A stretch of DNA of 44,328 nt, from the NCBI GenBank assembly GCA_001873185.1, contig MNYQ01000045.1, positions 1 through 44,328 on the forward strand. Reading direction: 5' to 3'. Shown here piece by piece: positions 7,128 to 15,308 of this stretch (its first letter is position 1; the number at the start of each line of letters is the position of its first letter). Below the pieces are notes generated by a model, which ran no database searches, was not told the DNA's origin, and worked only from the letters and a program-made list of their open reading frames with translations. Made by a program: the position numbers and the translations under genes. The stretch comes from Ignavibacteria bacterium CG2_30_36_16 (GTDB taxonomy: Bacteria > Bacteroidota > Ignavibacteria > Ignavibacteriales > Ignavibacteriaceae).

Positions 7128-7757
7128 TTAATGAAATCTTTTTTCACCGGCTGTAATAGCCATGTTTATGTAATCTTCTTTTGTAGGAATTGCGCATGAA
7201 TACCTTGCGCTGTAGGCACAGTAAGGATTATAAGCTTTGTTAAAATCGATAGTGTATTCATATTCCGGGTCAGCGTTCAATTCAAAATCTAAATATCTTC
7301 CAACTCCGTAAGTTTCTTCTCCGGTAGTGTTGTCCGTAAACCAGATGCTGAAATATTCATCTCCATTTTTAGAAAATCCTTTATACATGTTTAATTTATA
7401 ATAGGCGCCGGAATAATTGAATTTAAGATAACCATATTTAACAGCTTTTCTTTCCTCTCCCTTAGTGCCGAATACTTTTACCGTATCTTTGTTTCTGTAT
7501 TCAGTCAATCTACTTTTGAAAACAAACCCGGGATTTACATCATAGTAAACAAGCCGATGAAACTTTGCATTCGAATCTCCTGCAAAGGGGGAATCTGACG
7601 TTTGTCCAAATATAGAATCTTTTTCCGCTCTTTCTTTTTCAATCGATTTTATATATCGATCATATTCGGGTGAATATTTTTTCCCGCAAGAAATCAACAG
7701 AAATGCCGAAGTAAAGATTAGAATATAAATTGTGAATTTGGAAACGATACCCATCAT
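7128..7757 (-). CDS. DUF1684-family lipoprotein
   Basis: A lipoprotein signal ends at L-I-S-C-G-K (Cys24), so the protein is probably membrane-anchored on the periplasmic side. The C-terminal half carries the hallmarks of DUF1684: GxGRYLDFE, YTIDFNKAYNPYCAYS and YSCAIPTKEDYI, ending AGEKRF. The biochemical function of DUF1684 is not established. The gene lies between mutS (4-bp ATGA overlap) and aroF, so it is co-transcribed with both. The double ATG at 7757/7754 leaves the exact start ambiguous by one codon. Confidence 0.88.
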   Translation of the reverse strand: MMGIVSKFTIYILIFTSAFLLISCGKKYSPEYDRYIKSIEKERAEKDSIFGQTSDSPFAGDSNAKFHRLVYYDVNPGFVFKSRLTEYRNKDTVKVFGTKGEERKAVKYGYLKFNYSGAYYKLNMYKGFSKNGDEYFSIWFTDNTTGEETYGVGRYLDFELNADPEYEYTIDFNKAYNPYCAYSARYSCAIPTKEDYINMAITAGEKRFH

Positions 7758-10381
7758 TCTATATTATCCTTTAACTGCTTTTTGAGCTGACTAAGTTTGT
7801 TTAATGCTTCAAGCGGAGTAAGATTATTTATCTCAATTCCGTCAATCTCTTTGCGAATTTTGTCATCCTGAAATTCAAATAAACTTATTTGATTGCTTTC
7901 TTCACTATTAATTTTTTTAAGTTTTTCTTTCTTAATTTCGTAAGGCGTCAACTCTTTTCCTTCTAAATTCTCAAGTATTTCTTTAGCGCGGTTGGTTACG
8001 AACCTTGGCAGACCCGCCATTTGAGCAACCTGGATGCCGTAACTATGATCAGCTTTTCCTGGATTTACATTATGCAGAAAGATCACTTTATCATCATACT
8101 CCCGAACTTCAACTTTATAATTTTTTATCCTCGGAAAAATCTCTGCCATTTCATTTAGTTCGTGATAATGAGTAGCAAATAAAGTCTTTGCCGCAACGGC
8201 AGGGTTATCATGAAGATATTCGGTGATAGCCCACGCAATTGAAATACCATCAAAGGTGCTTGTTCCCCTACCTATTTCATCAAGAAGAACAAGGCTTTTT
8301 GATGTAGCATTGTTTAAAATGTTAGCCGCTTCCTGCATCTCAACCAAAAATGTTGATTCACCAGCGGCAATGTTATCACTTGCGCCAACTCGTGTAAAAA
8401 TTCTATCAACCAAACCGATCGTCGCTTTTTTTGCCGGTACAAAAGAACCAATCTGCGCCAAAAGAATGATCAACCCGACCTGCCTAAGAAATACAGATTT
8501 TCCCGCCATGTTTGGTCCGGTTAAAATAATGATTTGCGTGTCGTTATTATTTAAGTGACAACTATTAGCAGTATATTTTTCACCGGGCGGCAATATCCGT
8601 TCAACTACCGGATGCCGTCCATCAGTGATTTCTATTCCTTCATTGTCGTTCAAAACGGGTTTGGAGTAGCTGTATTGTTCTGCGCATTCGGCAAAAGAAA
8701 TTAAACAATCCAGTATTGCAATATAATGTGCGTTTTGCTGAATAGCTTCCGCTTCGGCAGCTACTGTTAATCGGAGTTCGTTAAAGAGTTCCGATTCCAG
8801 ATCATAAATTTTTTCTTCGGCGTGAAGAATTTTATCTTCGTACGTTTTTAGTTCGGGAGTTATAAACCGTTCGGAGTTAACAAGGGTCTGTTTACGAATA
8901 TAATCAGCAGGCACTTTATCTTTATGTGTATTGCTTATATCGATATAGTATCCAAATATTTTATTATAATTTACCTTCAAAGATGAGATACCGGTTTTCT
9001 CACGTTCGCTTTTTTGAAGATTGGCGATCCAGTCTTTTCCATTCAATGAAATATCGCGGAGTTCGTCTAATTCGGGGCTGTATCCGGCTTTTATAACGCC
9101 TCCGTCTGCAACACTCAAAGGCGGATTATCTACAAGAGATCTTTCAATTCTCTCAATAAGTCTGTCAAGTGAAAGAAGATTGCTGTTTATTGTAACAAGC
9201 AATTCGGAATAAAAAGGCAGCAGTGTTTCTTTAAGTAAAGGTATTTTTTTTAATGAAGTTTTAACCGCATTAATTTCGCGGGGATTTGCTCTGCCGGTGC
9301 ATACTTTTGAAATTAATCTTTCAAGATCGCCTATTTCTTTAAGATGCTGAATTATTTTTTTTCTAAAACTTCCTTCCGTTAAAAGTTCTTCAACGCCGTT
9401 AAGCCGTTTTTGAATAATGTTTAACTTTTTTAACGGAGCCGATATCCACTTCTTCAAAAGCCTGCCGCCCATAGCAGTTTCGGTTTTATCCATAATCGCA
9501 ATGAGCGAGCCTTCTCTTCCGCCGTCGTGCATGGAAAAAGTTATCTCAAGATTTCTCTTGGTTGAAAAATCAAGCGACATGTAATCAGATGGATTATAAG
9601 CCGATATTTTTGTGATATGCGAAAGATTTGCCTTTTGTGTTTCCTGAAGGTAATTTAAAACTACACCCGAAGAAATTATTCCGGCGTGGAGTAAATCAAC
9701 TCCGAAACCTTTTAAATTAACAGTCTTAAATTGCATTATAAGCAGGTCTTTTGCATACTCAAAGCTAAAGATCCAATCATCTACTTTGGTAATTCGAATG
9801 TTTGGATTCAGTTTATGAATTATAGCCGTCAGTTTGTCTTTATCTTTTTTTTGAACGAGAATTTCGGAAGGGTTGATCGACTCAATCTGTTGAACAAAAA
9901 CATTTTCCGGAACTTCAAATGAATAAAACTCACCGGTTGATATATCGCAGAAAGAAATCCCCACAATTTCTTCTTTTAAACAAACGGCAAGAAGATAATT
10001 GTTTTTTTTATGGTCGAGCAGTTTATCCGAAAAAGCAACTCCGGGAGTTACAACTTCAACTACTTCACGTTTTACAATTCCTTTTGCAAATTTTGGATTT
10101 TCCATCTGCTCGCAGACAGCAACACGGTAACCAGCCCTAACAAGTTTAGGCAAATAAGTGTCAATTGCGTGATGTGGAAAACCTGCAAGCGGGATGTCTT
10201 CTCCATTATTTGTTCCCCGTTTAGTTAAAGTAATCCCAAGAACTTTTGAGGCAAGTTTTGCATCTTCATCAAAGGTTTCAAAAAAGTCGCCAACCCTAAA
10301 AAGTAATACTGTATCCGGGTGCTGCTCTTTCACTTTAAAGTACTGTGCCATTAAAGGCGTTTGCTGCATATTAGCTTTCAT
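7754..10381 (-). CDS. mutS: DNA mismatch repair protein MutS
   Basis: MutS recognises base mismatches and small loops and recruits MutL. The N-terminal mismatch-binding domain has TPLMAQYFKVKEQHPD and the Phe-X-Glu wedge in GDFFETF. The C-terminal ATPase has Walker A TGPNMAGKS, a Walker B block LVLLDEIGRGTSTFDG, and FATHYHEL. I start at the ATG at 10381 (875 aa). A start at 10420 would add 13 residues not expected ahead of the conserved domain, and neither has a clear ribosome-binding site. MutL is not in the window. It heads the unit mutS - DUF1684 - DAHP synthase - tyrA with 4-bp overlaps, and is divergent from the plus-strand esterase-like gene. Confidence 0.96.
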   Translation of the reverse strand: MKANMQQTPLMAQYFKVKEQHPDTVLLFRVGDFFETFDEDAKLASKVLGITLTKRGTNNGEDIPLAGFPHHAIDTYLPKLVRAGYRVAVCEQMENPKFAKGIVKREVVEVVTPGVAFSDKLLDHKKNNYLLAVCLKEEIVGISFCDISTGEFYSFEVPENVFVQQIESINPSEILVQKKDKDKLTAIIHKLNPNIRITKVDDWIFSFEYAKDLLIMQFKTVNLKGFGVDLLHAGIISSGVVLNYLQETQKANLSHITKISAYNPSDYMSLDFSTKRNLEITFSMHDGGREGSLIAIMDKTETAMGGRLLKKWISAPLKKLNIIQKRLNGVEELLTEGSFRKKIIQHLKEIGDLERLISKVCTGRANPREINAVKTSLKKIPLLKETLLPFYSELLVTINSNLLSLDRLIERIERSLVDNPPLSVADGGVIKAGYSPELDELRDISLNGKDWIANLQKSEREKTGISSLKVNYNKIFGYYIDISNTHKDKVPADYIRKQTLVNSERFITPELKTYEDKILHAEEKIYDLESELFNELRLTVAAEAEAIQQNAHYIAILDCLISFAECAEQYSYSKPVLNDNEGIEITDGRHPVVERILPPGEKYTANSCHLNNNDTQIIILTGPNMAGKSVFLRQVGLIILLAQIGSFVPAKKATIGLVDRIFTRVGASDNIAAGESTFLVEMQEAANILNNATSKSLVLLDEIGRGTSTFDGISIAWAITEYLHDNPAVAAKTLFATHYHELNEMAEIFPRIKNYKVEVREYDDKVIFLHNVNPGKADHSYGIQVAQMAGLPRFVTNRAKEILENLEGKELTPYEIKKEKLKKINSEESNQISLFEFQDDKIRKEIDGIEINNLTPLEALNKLSQLKKQLKDNIE

Positions 10382-10585
10382 AAGAGGAACAAAAATACCG
10401 TAATGAGTTAATAATATCAATTAAGATGCATATGAATATAAACTAAAGTTTAGCTCCAAATGAGTGAGTTAGTCGAAAAAATTAATAATTTTAGATCTTT
10501 TCTTTCTAAAATAATTTTCATTAATCAAATGATTATATTTGCCAGTGCTGTAACTAACGAATTTTATTTTACCTATCGGAGGATT

Positions 10586-11308
10586 GTGAAAGAAGAATAC
10601 CACAAATGGTTTACCGAATACCTTGAACGCGAATTTGAGATGTTAGTTTTCGGGCACGGAGGTTATCCGTTACTATTGTTTCCGGATGCAAAAGGCAAAT
10701 TTTATCAAGCAAAAGATGAAGGCTTGATTTCATCAGCAGCTAATCTTATTGAAGAGGGTAAAATAAAAGTTTATTGCCCCGATTCTATTGACGCCGATAG
10801 CTGGTATAATTGGTCAATTCATCCTGCTGACCGTGTGAAAACACATATCGGTTACGAAAACGTTATTCTTAATGATATTATTGAATTTATAAAATACGAC
10901 TCTGCGAAAGAAAAAATTGCAGTGGCAGGATGCGGCATGGGCGGATATCATGCTGCAAACCTTACATTTAGGCACCCAGATCTTTTCAGCCATTTAATTT
11001 CCATTAACGGATTTTTTTTTATCAAACAATTTATATTCGGTCATTACGATGATAACTGTTATTTCAACAACCCACCGGATTATCTGCCCGGTTTAAATGA
11101 TAATTGGTATCTAGATAAAATCAGGCAGATTGGAATTTTACTTTGCACCGGTGAACATGACCTCGCACTTGAAGAGAATATAAATCTTTCAAACATATTA
11201 TCATTAAAAAATATAAACCATTTTCTTAACGTTAAACCGGGTTTCGGCAGCAGCTGGGATGAAAGGCGCGCCATCTTTTCGGAATGTTTAGAAAGGATGA
11301 TATACTGA
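10586..11308 (+). CDS. Esterase-family alpha/beta-hydrolase fold protein with degenerate catalytic triad
   Basis: The fold and sequence follow the COG4947-type esterase family (N-terminal EYHKWxTxxLEREFEMLVFGH, then P-x-L-L-F-P, WYNWSIHPADR, GYHAANLTFRHPDLF). The nucleophile elbow, normally G-C-S-M-G-G in this family, reads G-C-G-M-G-G, so Gly117 replaces the Ser. The region expected to carry the catalytic His (usually H-D-W) reads S222-S223-W224. The Asp (D192, GEHD) is retained. It is therefore probably not a hydrolase of the usual kind. I choose the GTG at 10586 because GGAGG precedes it (10578-10582, 3-bp spacer) and it matches the family N-terminus. An ATG at 10460 would add 42 unrelated residues. 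Confidence 0.8.
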   Translation: MKEEYHKWFTEYLEREFEMLVFGHGGYPLLLFPDAKGKFYQAKDEGLISSAANLIEEGKIKVYCPDSIDADSWYNWSIHPADRVKTHIGYENVILNDIIEFIKYDSAKEKIAVAGCGMGGYHAANLTFRHPDLFSHLISINGFFFIKQFIFGHYDDNCYFNNPPDYLPGLNDNWYLDKIRQIGILLCTGEHDLALEENINLSNILSLKNINHFLNVKPGFGSSWDERRAIFSECLERMIY

Positions 11309-11482
11309 CTTACTAAATCATGTTACGCAGATTGGCGGCTGCCGGATGAAGTAATCTTAATTTTGAATTAAAAACAAAAGATTGCTTCACTCGAAGACTC
11401 GTTCGCAATGACTTTTTCAATTTTTAGGACAGCCCCCGACAAAATTTGAATATCATATTGCGTAAGGTGACTTACTAAATCA
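11306..11482. repeat. 15-bp direct repeats flanking a degenerate palindromic repeat
   Basis: TGACTTACTAAATCA occurs exactly at 11306-11320 and 11468-11482. The first copy contains the TGA stop of the esterase-like gene. Just inside lie a TTACGCA / TGCGTAA inverted pair (11323-11329, 11459-11465). The interior (11380-11412, GATTGCTTC...TTCGCAATGAC) resembles half of the 140-150 bp elements at 28.7, 31.3 and 40.3 kb. The 253-bp gap to the next gene holds nothing else that I recognise. Confidence 0.6.
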
Positions 11483-11561
11483 GCCGTTTAAAATTTCTTC
11501 CGGCAAGATTTATTATATTATACCCGTTTAATAAATTCTTCAAAAATAAAATGTATTAAGT

Positions 11562-14500
11562 ATGAATTATTACGAATTTCACATTTCAAAAAACGCCAGG
11601 ATAAAATTTGATTTCGATAAAAATTTATTTGCCTTAAATGGTGATTTGATAATCGCTGATTTTAAGCAAGCAAGATTATTATCGGACAAAATAAATAATA
11701 TTAGAAAAAATGAAAATCATCCCGAACTTCAAATAACCGCAGGGCAATTAAATGCGCTCGGATTGTTGCATGAGATTTACCATCACATTATCAGCTTTTA
11801 TAACGAGAACGAAAATAAAGGTGCTATTTCTAAAAGTATAGATCACCTTCGGCAGCAGCTCGGGGAAAAGGAATTAAACGATGTTCTCATTGAATATCTC
11901 CACGAATTTCCGCCGCAGAAAGTTTATAAAGGAATTCAATCCGCCAAAGAATTTCTTGAGGATACAACGTACGACAAACCAAACCGGGAGCTTGTACTTG
12001 AAGAATTAATTCTCCTTAATCTTGAAAACTATAACCCTGCCGTTGTGAGTTTTAAAGAATTTTTCAGCGATGCTGCATTATCAAAAAAAGTAAAATATAT
12101 CGAAGTTATTGATGCAGCCGAGCAGTTCTTTGTAAACGAAAAAACTATCGGAAAAGATAATCTTCATCTCTTCAAGTTTTTACGTAAGCCTATTATGGCT
12201 TCACCTAATAATATTGAAGAACAATTAGATTTTATCCTTGAAAATTGGAGCGTGTATGTTTACGATAAATTCCACAACAGGATTTTATCAAGCAAAGATT
12301 TGATTTATGAAGACGTAAAACTTTTTATACAGCACGGCGGCGGCGAAATGGGAACGCCCCCTGTTCCAAATTATTTGTGGGAAAAAGAATTTCTCGCACG
12401 GGTGCGGGCTAAAATTGCGTCGGGCAAGGAACTTAGTAAAGAAGAATTAAATTTTTATTACACCGAGCCGGAACGGTTTACCGAGGATACAGATTGGATG
12501 CCGCAGGTTGTAATGATAGCCAAAAATGCTTATGTATGGTTAGATCAGTTATCAAAAAAGTACCGGCGTTCTATAAGCCGCCTTGACGAAATTCCTGATG
12601 AAGAACTCGACCTGCTGGCAAAATGGAATTTCACAGCGCTCTGGTTGATTGGTTTATGGGAAAGAAGTTCCGCTTCAAAAAAAATAAAACAATACACCGG
12701 CAATCCCGAAGCAGCATCTTCTGCATACTCACTTTATGATTATGTTATTGCAAACGATTTAGGCGGCGAAACGGCTTTTGAAAATTTAAAACAACGCGCA
12801 TGGCAAAGAGGAATTAGAATGGCTTCCGATATGGTACCTAACCACACGGGCATTTTTTCAAAGTGGATTATAGAAAAACCGGATTATTTTATTCAACGAA
12901 ATGATCCTCCATATCCGGCGTATAGTTTCCGTGGACCAAATCTTTCAGACGATGAGAGGGTTGAGGTTAGAATTGAAGATAAATATTATTCAAAGGAGGA
13001 TGCTGCCGTTGTTTTCCAAAGATACGATAATCATACAGGCGAAGTGAAATATATTTATCACGGTAACGACGGCACAAACATGCCCTGGAATGATACCGCT
13101 CAACTTAATCTTCTGCTGCCGGAAGTCCGTGAATCACTTATTCAAACAATCATGCACGTTGCACGTAAAACCCCGATCATCCGTTTTGATGCAGCGATGA
13201 CGCTCGCTAAAAAACATTTTCAGCGTTTATGGTTTCCTCAGCCAGGCACTGGCGGGGCAATTCCGTCGCGTTCTGATTTTTCATTAACCCGCGAAGAATT
13301 TGAGAACGCCTTCCCCGAAGAGTTTTGGCGTGAAGTAGTTGATAGAATGAATGCGGAAATGCCGCAAACATTACTGCTTGCCGAAGCCTTTTGGCTTATG
13401 GAAGGTTATTTTGTTAGAACCCTTGGAATGCATCGTGTTTACAACAGCGCTTTTATGCACATGATGATGAAGGAGGAAAATAATAAGTACAGAGAGTTGA
13501 TTAAAAACACTCTCGACTTCAATCCGGAAATATTAAAACGTTATGTTAATTTCATGAGTAACCCGGATGAAGAAACTGCCGTCAATCAATTTGGCAAAGG
13601 CGATAAATATTTTGGTATAGCAGTTATGATGATTACTTTGCCCGGCTTGCCAATGTTTGGGCACGGACAGGTTGAAGGATTCGCCGAAAAGTATGGTATG
13701 GAATACAAGCGCGCCTACTATGATGAATATGTGGATGAAAATTTAGTGCGTCGTCATGAGACGGAAATATTCCCCATGATTCGTAAACGTTATTTGTTCT
13801 CACAGGTAAATAATTTTGAATTTTATAATTTTATAGATGAATTTGGAAATTTGAATGAAAATGTATTCGCATTTTCTAATAAAGCTGCAAGTGAGAAAAC
13901 GATTGTTCTTTTCAACAACTCATACAATGAGGTAAAAGGAACTATCAAGCATTCAGTTCCGAAGGTTAGAAATTCAAACGACGTTCAGTCAACAACTTTG
14001 GCGAATTCGTTAGGTTTTAAAAATGAAAACAAATATTTCTATATTTTGTTTGACCATAAAACTAAACTTGAATTTCTTTTCAACGGGAGTGAAATTAATC
14101 AACAAGGCGCTTTTTTCTCACTGAGTGGTTATGAATATCATGTCTTTTTTAATTTTACAGAAGTGTTCGACGCAATAGGTGAATATCAAAAGCTCTACAA
14201 ATTTCTGCATGGCAGAGGCGTTCACTCCGTCCTGTTTGCGTTGAAAGAATTAAATCTTGCAGGAGTTCATAAAGAAATTGAACAGATGGTTAACGCACAT
14301 AATTTCGATTTGATGGAAAACTTCTGTTTTGAAAATGAACCAATCGACTTAAAAAAAGAAAAAGAATATATTTACAACATCCAACCGCTTCCGGATGATG
14401 TTCAAAACAATTTAAACGCCCTCTTGTTTGAAATCAATTATATTCAAACACCGCCGGCAGATGCAAAAAGATTTTTTGAGAACGTTACTGAAAGATATAA

Positions 14501-15308
14501 TGCTATAAAAGTTTTTCACTCATTAATAGTAAAAGAATCTGCAAAGCGAACGAGCAAAAAATGGACTGATTTTGTAATAACTAGGTTAACTTCAGGAAAA
14601 GCAAAACATCAAAACGATAAAACTCTGTTTCTTCTTCAATTTACATCAGGATTTTTAGATGTTTATTCTTGCAATTTTAAAGAAAATCAAGAAATTTTTG
14701 ATAAACTTTTACTCGAAAAAGCTATTTGGAATGCTCTAAAATTAAATAATGGTAATGATGTAAGTAGAAATGTACTGCTTATTAAAATCTTATCCTCTTC
14801 TCAGTTTTGTAAAAGTGTAATGGAATTATTCAGTTCAGTATCGAACAAATCTACAAAATTCAAATCTGCGGTATTGCTGTTTTTGACTGAACTTTTCGAA
14901 GAAGAAAATTTGAAAAAATACCTCAATGTAAATGTTCATGAAGGTGTAGAATATTTCGGAAAAGAAAATTTTTCTACTCTTTGGAACTGGATATTCACAA
15001 TTTATTGTTACGATAAAAGCCGATCACATTTTTTGAAAGAAAGTAAAATTGCAAAAAGAAAAACAGCGAATTCTGCTTCTGAGGCTAAAAAAGTTTTTAT
15101 AGATGAGATAAGGAGAGCCGCTGAATTTTTGGAGTTTATAAATATAGGCGCTGAGGAATCGGGCTTCAAAACAAGTGAAATTAAAAAATTAATTGAAATA
15201 AAAACTGTCGCTCGTCAAAAAGATAGCATGACAAAAACTTCTAAAACCAAAACAAAGATAAAAACCGAATTGCCCGGCAAATTTTCTATCCGTAAAAAAA
15301 ACATTTAG
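11562..15308 (+). CDS. Very large GH13 (alpha-amylase superfamily) protein, 1248 aa
   Basis: A GH13 barrel spans roughly residues 355-740. Region I is D423-MVPNH, region II has R541-F-D543 (nucleophile), region III has E608 (LLLAEAF, acid/base), and region IV is N667-P668-D669. The catalytic Asp/Glu/Asp trio is intact but the usual NHD histidine is Pro. About 350 residues precede the barrel and about 500 follow it, mostly helical-looking and unlike standard starch-binding modules. No signal peptide is present, so it is probably cytoplasmic. The substrate cannot be read from sequence; a glucan or storage-polysaccharide role is inferred. The C-terminus is Lys/Thr-rich and low complexity. Confidence 0.85.
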   Translation: MNYYEFHISKNARIKFDFDKNLFALNGDLIIADFKQARLLSDKINNIRKNENHPELQITAGQLNALGLLHEIYHHIISFYNENENKGAISKSIDHLRQQLGEKELNDVLIEYLHEFPPQKVYKGIQSAKEFLEDTTYDKPNRELVLEELILLNLENYNPAVVSFKEFFSDAALSKKVKYIEVIDAAEQFFVNEKTIGKDNLHLFKFLRKPIMASPNNIEEQLDFILENWSVYVYDKFHNRILSSKDLIYEDVKLFIQHGGGEMGTPPVPNYLWEKEFLARVRAKIASGKELSKEELNFYYTEPERFTEDTDWMPQVVMIAKNAYVWLDQLSKKYRRSISRLDEIPDEELDLLAKWNFTALWLIGLWERSSASKKIKQYTGNPEAASSAYSLYDYVIANDLGGETAFENLKQRAWQRGIRMASDMVPNHTGIFSKWIIEKPDYFIQRNDPPYPAYSFRGPNLSDDERVEVRIEDKYYSKEDAAVVFQRYDNHTGEVKYIYHGNDGTNMPWNDTAQLNLLLPEVRESLIQTIMHVARKTPIIRFDAAMTLAKKHFQRLWFPQPGTGGAIPSRSDFSLTREEFENAFPEEFWREVVDRMNAEMPQTLLLAEAFWLMEGYFVRTLGMHRVYNSAFMHMMMKEENNKYRELIKNTLDFNPEILKRYVNFMSNPDEETAVNQFGKGDKYFGIAVMMITLPGLPMFGHGQVEGFAEKYGMEYKRAYYDEYVDENLVRRHETEIFPMIRKRYLFSQVNNFEFYNFIDEFGNLNENVFAFSNKAASEKTIVLFNNSYNEVKGTIKHSVPKVRNSNDVQSTTLANSLGFKNENKYFYILFDHKTKLEFLFNGSEINQQGAFFSLSGYEYHVFFNFTEVFDAIGEYQKLYKFLHGRGVHSVLFALKELNLAGVHKEIEQMVNAHNFDLMENFCFENEPIDLKKEKEYIYNIQPLPDDVQNNLNALLFEINYIQTPPADAKRFFENVTERYNAIKVFHSLIVKESAKRTSKKWTDFVITRLTSGKAKHQNDKTLFLLQFTSGFLDVYSCNFKENQEIFDKLLLEKAIWNALKLNNGNDVSRNVLLIKILSSSQFCKSVMELFSSVSNKSTKFKSAVLLFLTELFEEENLKKYLNVNVHEGVEYFGKENFSTLWNWIFTIYCYDKSRSHFLKESKIAKRKTANSASEAKKVFIDEIRRAAEFLEFINIGAEESGFKTSEIKKLIEIKTVARQKDSMTKTSKTKTKIKTELPGKFSIRKKNI

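Follow-up and report, generated by a model that had tools for sequence, protein, structure and literature searches.

The closest described relatives of the protein studied here are feruloyl and other CE1-type esterases and S-formylglutathione hydrolases (Esterase D-like, PF00756; PDB 5vol, 7l0a, 3ls2, and 4rgy), which share with it a common fold, the nucleophile elbow, and the positions of the catalytic Asp and His, and which Foldseek returns as its nearest solved folds (E about 1e-14 to 1e-11, TM about 0.7–0.8). However, identity to these esterases is just 12–18%, and the protein lacks both the nucleophile Ser and the catalytic His. In this it resembles pseudoenzymes and dead paralogues generally (reviewed in PMC5106787; for the prozyme case, PMC5201418), where catalytic residues have been lost and the fold and purifying selection are kept; unlike pseudoenzymes generally, the loss here has recurred within a single bacterial order, in part linked to the loss of operon partners. 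Pseudoenzymes are usually found singly, which makes it hard to test why catalysis goes and in what order its components are lost. The one small family considered here shows repeated nucleophile loss in a single order and also offers catalytic sisters, an operon context that can be identified, and a fixed order of loss (Ser before His). This makes it possible to test both whether losing pathway partners triggers the loss of catalysis and which role the protein has beyond it.

The gene lies between mutS and a GH13-like gene in the window (the whole stretch of 44,328 nucleotides that was analysed), where we distinguish the following features:

7754–10420, minus strand: mutS, the divergent upstream neighbour, which anchors the locus across genera (NCBIfam PRK05399, TIGR01070; synteny)
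10586–11308, plus strand: pseudo-esterase of 240 aa with an alpha/beta-hydrolase fold, lacking the catalytic Ser and His (translation, PF00756, AlphaFold, Foldseek)
10934–10936, plus strand: GGC, Gly117, at the nucleophile position (codon reading; homologue alignment)
11159–11161, plus strand: GAC, Asp192, the acid that is kept (codon reading; homologue alignment)
11249–11257, plus strand: AGC AGC TGG, Ser222-Ser223-Trp224, replacing His-Asp-Trp (translation, codons, alignment)
11306–11482, no strand assigned: repeat element bearing terminal inverted repeats, each end marked by a 15-bp direct repeat, inserted at the stop codon of the esterase gene
11309–11561, plus strand: site where four operon genes are missing (no remnant detected)
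11562–15308, plus strand: GH13-like gene, which in intact relatives follows the ATP-grasp, GCS2, GATase, and ligase-like genes (PF00128, E=2e-8; synteny)

The open reading frame runs without interruption from V1 to Y240, and we take the GTG at 10586 as its right start, despite an in-frame ATG at 10460, because homologues, including that of the same-genus relative L032, begin at the M-K-E-E-Y-H-K-W position. The initial annotation had read Gly117 (GGC) where the family carries Ser, and S222-S223-W224 in place of H-D-W. Comparison with relatives bears out both readings: all 46 Ser-containing Ignavibacteria homologues have an AGT or AGC codon at this position, one transition from Gly or Asn, and S117 and H222 are present together in 46/46. 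Its statements that Asp192 is retained in an intact frame and that a large GH13 gene follows likewise agree with the translation and with the GH13-like frame found next downstream. It had not mentioned two further changes, in the oxyanion-side loop (T34-S35 to D-A) and at W227 and M230 (to R and I).

Membership in the esterase family is indicated by a PF00756 profile score of 25.7 bits, against a curated cut-off of 22, and an AlphaFold model built from an input of 62 homologues has the alpha/beta-hydrolase fold (mean pLDDT 96.8, pTM 0.93). In this model, strand 111–116 is followed by G117 and then by helix 118–129, the position of a nucleophile elbow; D192 comes after strand 183–189, and S222 lies in the loop past the last strand, which are the usual positions of the Asp and the His. 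The elbow itself reads A114-G-C-G117-M-G-G-Y (G-C-G-M-G-G being residues 115–120), and AGCGMGGY aligns with AGLSMGGY of the solved esterase 4rgy; near the C-terminus, G221 precedes the changed residues to give G-S-S-W at 221–224. Set against what a serine hydrolase needs, the Ser of the G-x-S-x-G elbow is replaced (Gly117), as is the catalytic His of the loop after the last strand (Ser222), and the catalytic Asp after strand 7 is in place (Asp192). COG4947, the family label used in the initial annotation, was mentioned only in passing, in two papers of the literature searched, a search that had most subscription journals outside its scope.

Loss of the nucleophile is widespread among relatives. 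Ser117 is absent from 28 of 104 distinct homologues, all 28 of them in Ignavibacteriales, and is replaced by Gly, Asn, Asp, or Glu; the copy in L032, 72% identical to that of the window, reads C-G-L-G-G and C-G-Y at the two sites (Gly/Cys). The catalytic His is kept in 76/76 Ser-containing copies versus 9/26 full-length Ser-less copies, and Ser was therefore lost first. With the catalytic columns left out, the tree requires at least 11 changes of Ser state, a rough figure given its poorly resolved backbone, and the hypothesis that all Ser-less copies arose once, forming one clade, is rejected (AU p=0.008). Seventy-eight sites are conserved in at least 90% of Ser-containing copies, and 21 of those are invariant in 26/26 Ser-less copies; several of the sites most often lost (S117, S35, T34, H222, D223, W227, and M230) belong to the active site or adjoin one of its residues in the sequence. 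No substitute Ser/His pair emerged from the homologue alignment; H212, the remaining conserved His, shows conservation in catalytic copies too. We rejected Cys116 as an alternative nucleophile, its frequency being 0.91 in Ser-containing and 0.62 in Ser-less copies. Asp (GAT or GAC) occupies the nucleophile position in five homologues (L077, L080, L081, L189, and L209), and in L077 and L081, where the His is kept, the arrangement recalls alpha/beta hydrolases that use Asp as their nucleophile. Several related Ignavibacteriaceae genomes lack the gene with no remnant, and the gene is therefore dispensable.

Synteny among relatives places the esterase gene in a conserved order, ancestrally mutS / esterase – ATP-grasp – GCS2 ligase – GATase – second ligase-like gene – GH13, an arrangement that we describe here as new; a literature search with most subscription journals outside its scope found no work joining ATP-grasp and YbdK or GCS2-type ligases with this esterase. 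The gene after the esterase is an ATP-grasp ligase by structure and fold, and the GCS2 and GATase genes were identified by Pfam. The second ligase-like gene (about 392 aa) had no Pfam match, and profile searches against PDB sequences returned no match for either it or the ATP-grasp gene. At the window locus neither an ATP-grasp nor a GCS2 gene adjoins the esterase, and no remnants of the operon genes were found in the gap at 11309–11561. At 1248 aa, the GH13-like protein encoded next is of unusual length, and its match to alpha-amylase is weak and confined to residues 347–710.

The window, L032, and a five-species group in another genus all combine a Ser-less esterase with loss of the partner genes from the locus. 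Among mutS-linked copies, an ATP-grasp gene adjoins the esterase in 12/12 that have the Ser, and is absent from 7/7 that lack it, with GH13 directly next in 6/7; in one of the seven, L192, the contig ends 665 bp past the gene, and its genome has no ATP-grasp gene. On a tree of mutS and GH13 the operon-less loci fall into two clades, a single clade being rejected (AU p=0.006); operon loss is thus shown to have been paired with Ser loss at the mutS locus at least two times independently. Across genomes, the ATP-grasp gene is missing from 18/27 with a Ser-less copy only versus 9/42 with a Ser-containing copy (Fisher p=0.0003), counts that were tallied by hand, include related species, and are neither independent nor corrected for kinship. 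When the association between losing the Ser and losing the operon was put to an independent-pairs test on the esterase tree, just 2 pairs were supported. Exceptions occur in both directions, with 11 Ser-containing orphans that keep the triad and 7 Ser-less copies within intact operons, and in some lineages catalysis was therefore lost while the operon stayed. The two losses tend to go together but are not strictly coupled. Relatives from the order with a Ser-less esterase inside an intact ATP-grasp/GCS2 operon include L081, L105, and L212–L215; just upstream of the esterase, these operons carry a gene for a protein that by its sequence appears secreted and thioredoxin-fold-like. We considered this extra gene as a replacement hydrolase and rejected it, since its product looks like a secreted thioredoxin-fold protein and not a hydrolase.

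The window genome itself has a complete operon on another contig, C220, including adjacent ATP-grasp and GCS2 genes and an esterase paralogue, 55% identical to the window copy, that retains both Ser and His; this genome is an Ignavibacteria MAG, 88% complete, and C220 could be mis-binned. In the L032 genome (85% complete), one esterase copy was found and no operon was detected. Catalytic esterases of this Ignavibacteria operon family (for example those of C220, L033, and L053) are 55–62% identical to the window copy, equal in length, and have most family-invariant residues in common with it. Their G-x-S-x-G-G and H-D-W motifs are intact, and most of them open an ATP-grasp/GCS2/GATase operon, whereas the window copy stands alone before GH13.

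Our preferred reading, to which we assign a probability of roughly two in three, is that the window protein is an operon esterase orphaned by the loss of its partner genes, freed from catalysis, and kept as a non-catalytic protein. Its ancestor would have been a Ser-His-Asp hydrolase encoded by the first gene of a biosynthetic operon between mutS and GH13. The ligase families in the operon suggest a glutathione-like compound or a peptide as its product, and the operon context together with the S-formylglutathione-hydrolase-like fold suggests that the ancestral esterase hydrolysed a derivative of that product. In the window's lineage the partner genes would have been removed from this locus, the complete operon and its catalytic paralogue being on the other contig; catalysis would have become dispensable because the copy left behind had no substrate. 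Ser117 would then have changed to Gly by one transition, with the oxyanion loop and His222 also changing, and the fold and most family-wide residues would have stayed under purifying selection. Operon loss probably came before Ser loss in this sequence of events, and the retained role is presumably that of a binding protein, whose target would be a small ligand held in the former active-site pocket or another protein.

That the gene is instead a slowly disappearing relic, whose conservation reflects no more than the short time elapsed or the toxicity of a misfolded product, is an unlikely explanation. It would fit the complete absence of the gene from several related genomes and the faster evolution of Ser-less copies: relative to mutS in the same genomes, dN(esterase)/dN(mutS) is 2.9–4.5 in Ser-less pairs versus 0.9–2.1 in Ser-containing pairs, and constraint is clearly relaxed in Ser-less copies compared with their catalytic relatives. 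Yet a pairwise codon model gives an omega of 0.067 for the window and L032 (likelihood ratio 150 against omega = 1), at a dS of 2.7 that is near synonymous saturation, and the other Ser-less pairs agree, with 0.041 for L190–L191, 0.062 for L080–L209 (dS 1.4), and 0.059 for the unsaturated pair L212–L215 (dS 0.40). Values for Ser-less pairs span 0.04–0.08 overall; those for catalytic pairs run from about 0.001 to 0.04, the smallest reflecting saturated dS. Further evidence against decay comes from the 21 family-conserved sites kept without exception in the 26 Ser-less proteins, and from the close homologues, among which no frameshifted or stop-broken copy was seen; under neutral simulation, 0.5% of copies are stop-free at 0.2 substitutions per site. 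Loss of catalytic residues is thus combined with continuing purifying selection, as expected of a pseudoenzyme, and the view of the initial annotation that this is a maintained non-catalytic or re-purposed protein and not a decaying gene, for which it had proposed measuring dN/dS across close relatives, is upheld by omega well below 1 in every Ser-less pair.

Other readings would retain the protein for a different reason. Dead paralogues of other enzymes provide a precedent (PMC5201418) for a prozyme-type regulator that binds the catalytic C220 paralogue and either activates or stabilises it, and the presence of both copies in the window genome fits such an arrangement; but most Ser-less genomes lack a close catalytic paralogue, L032 among them as far as its incomplete assembly goes, which rules such regulation out as the general cause of retention, and we regard it as very doubtful for the window as well. 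Retained enzymatic activity by another mechanism, whether with a different nucleophile or as a reaction of the lyase or dehydratase kind that employs the retained Asp192 and pocket residues, could draw on the presence of Asp192 in 96% of Ser-less proteins and on some copies in which Asp or Asn replaces the nucleophile and the His persists. Against it, that position varies among G, N, D, and E; the neighbouring active-site residues S35, Y74, H222, D223, and W227 erode together; C116 is not selectively kept; and the window residue is Gly, which has no side chain, all of which makes this reading highly improbable. The likelihood of an assembly or sequencing error at residue 117 is close to nil: the one-base difference between GGC and AGC and the origin of the genome as a MAG would allow for one, but L032 has GGC independently, both genomes lack His222, and 26 further copies lack the Ser, so that the relatives refute an error at this codon.

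We put forward tentatively, at somewhat less than even odds, that the esterase has two functions, hydrolysis for the ATP-grasp/GCS2 pathway and an older or separate non-catalytic role, and that lineages dropping the pathway repeatedly strip the catalytic residues and keep the second role. If this were true, Ignavibacteriales would amount to a natural, replicated experiment on how pseudoenzymes form, one that extends to copies gone dead inside intact operons.

The interval between the esterase and the GH13-like gene contains two further elements. The repeat element at 11306–11482, about 160 bp with the direct repeat TGACTTACTAAATCA, is matched, in full or in part, 52 times in the genome and looks like a MITE. 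It is absent at this place in L032, and we rejected it as the cause of the operon deletion, L032 lacking both the operon and the element. Beyond it, at 11505–11520 and before the GH13 gene, stands the string AAGATTTATTATATTA; a near-identical string lies upstream of GH13 in L032, L189, L190, and L191, with partial versions in L052 and L067, and it is possibly a promoter element of the GH13 gene.
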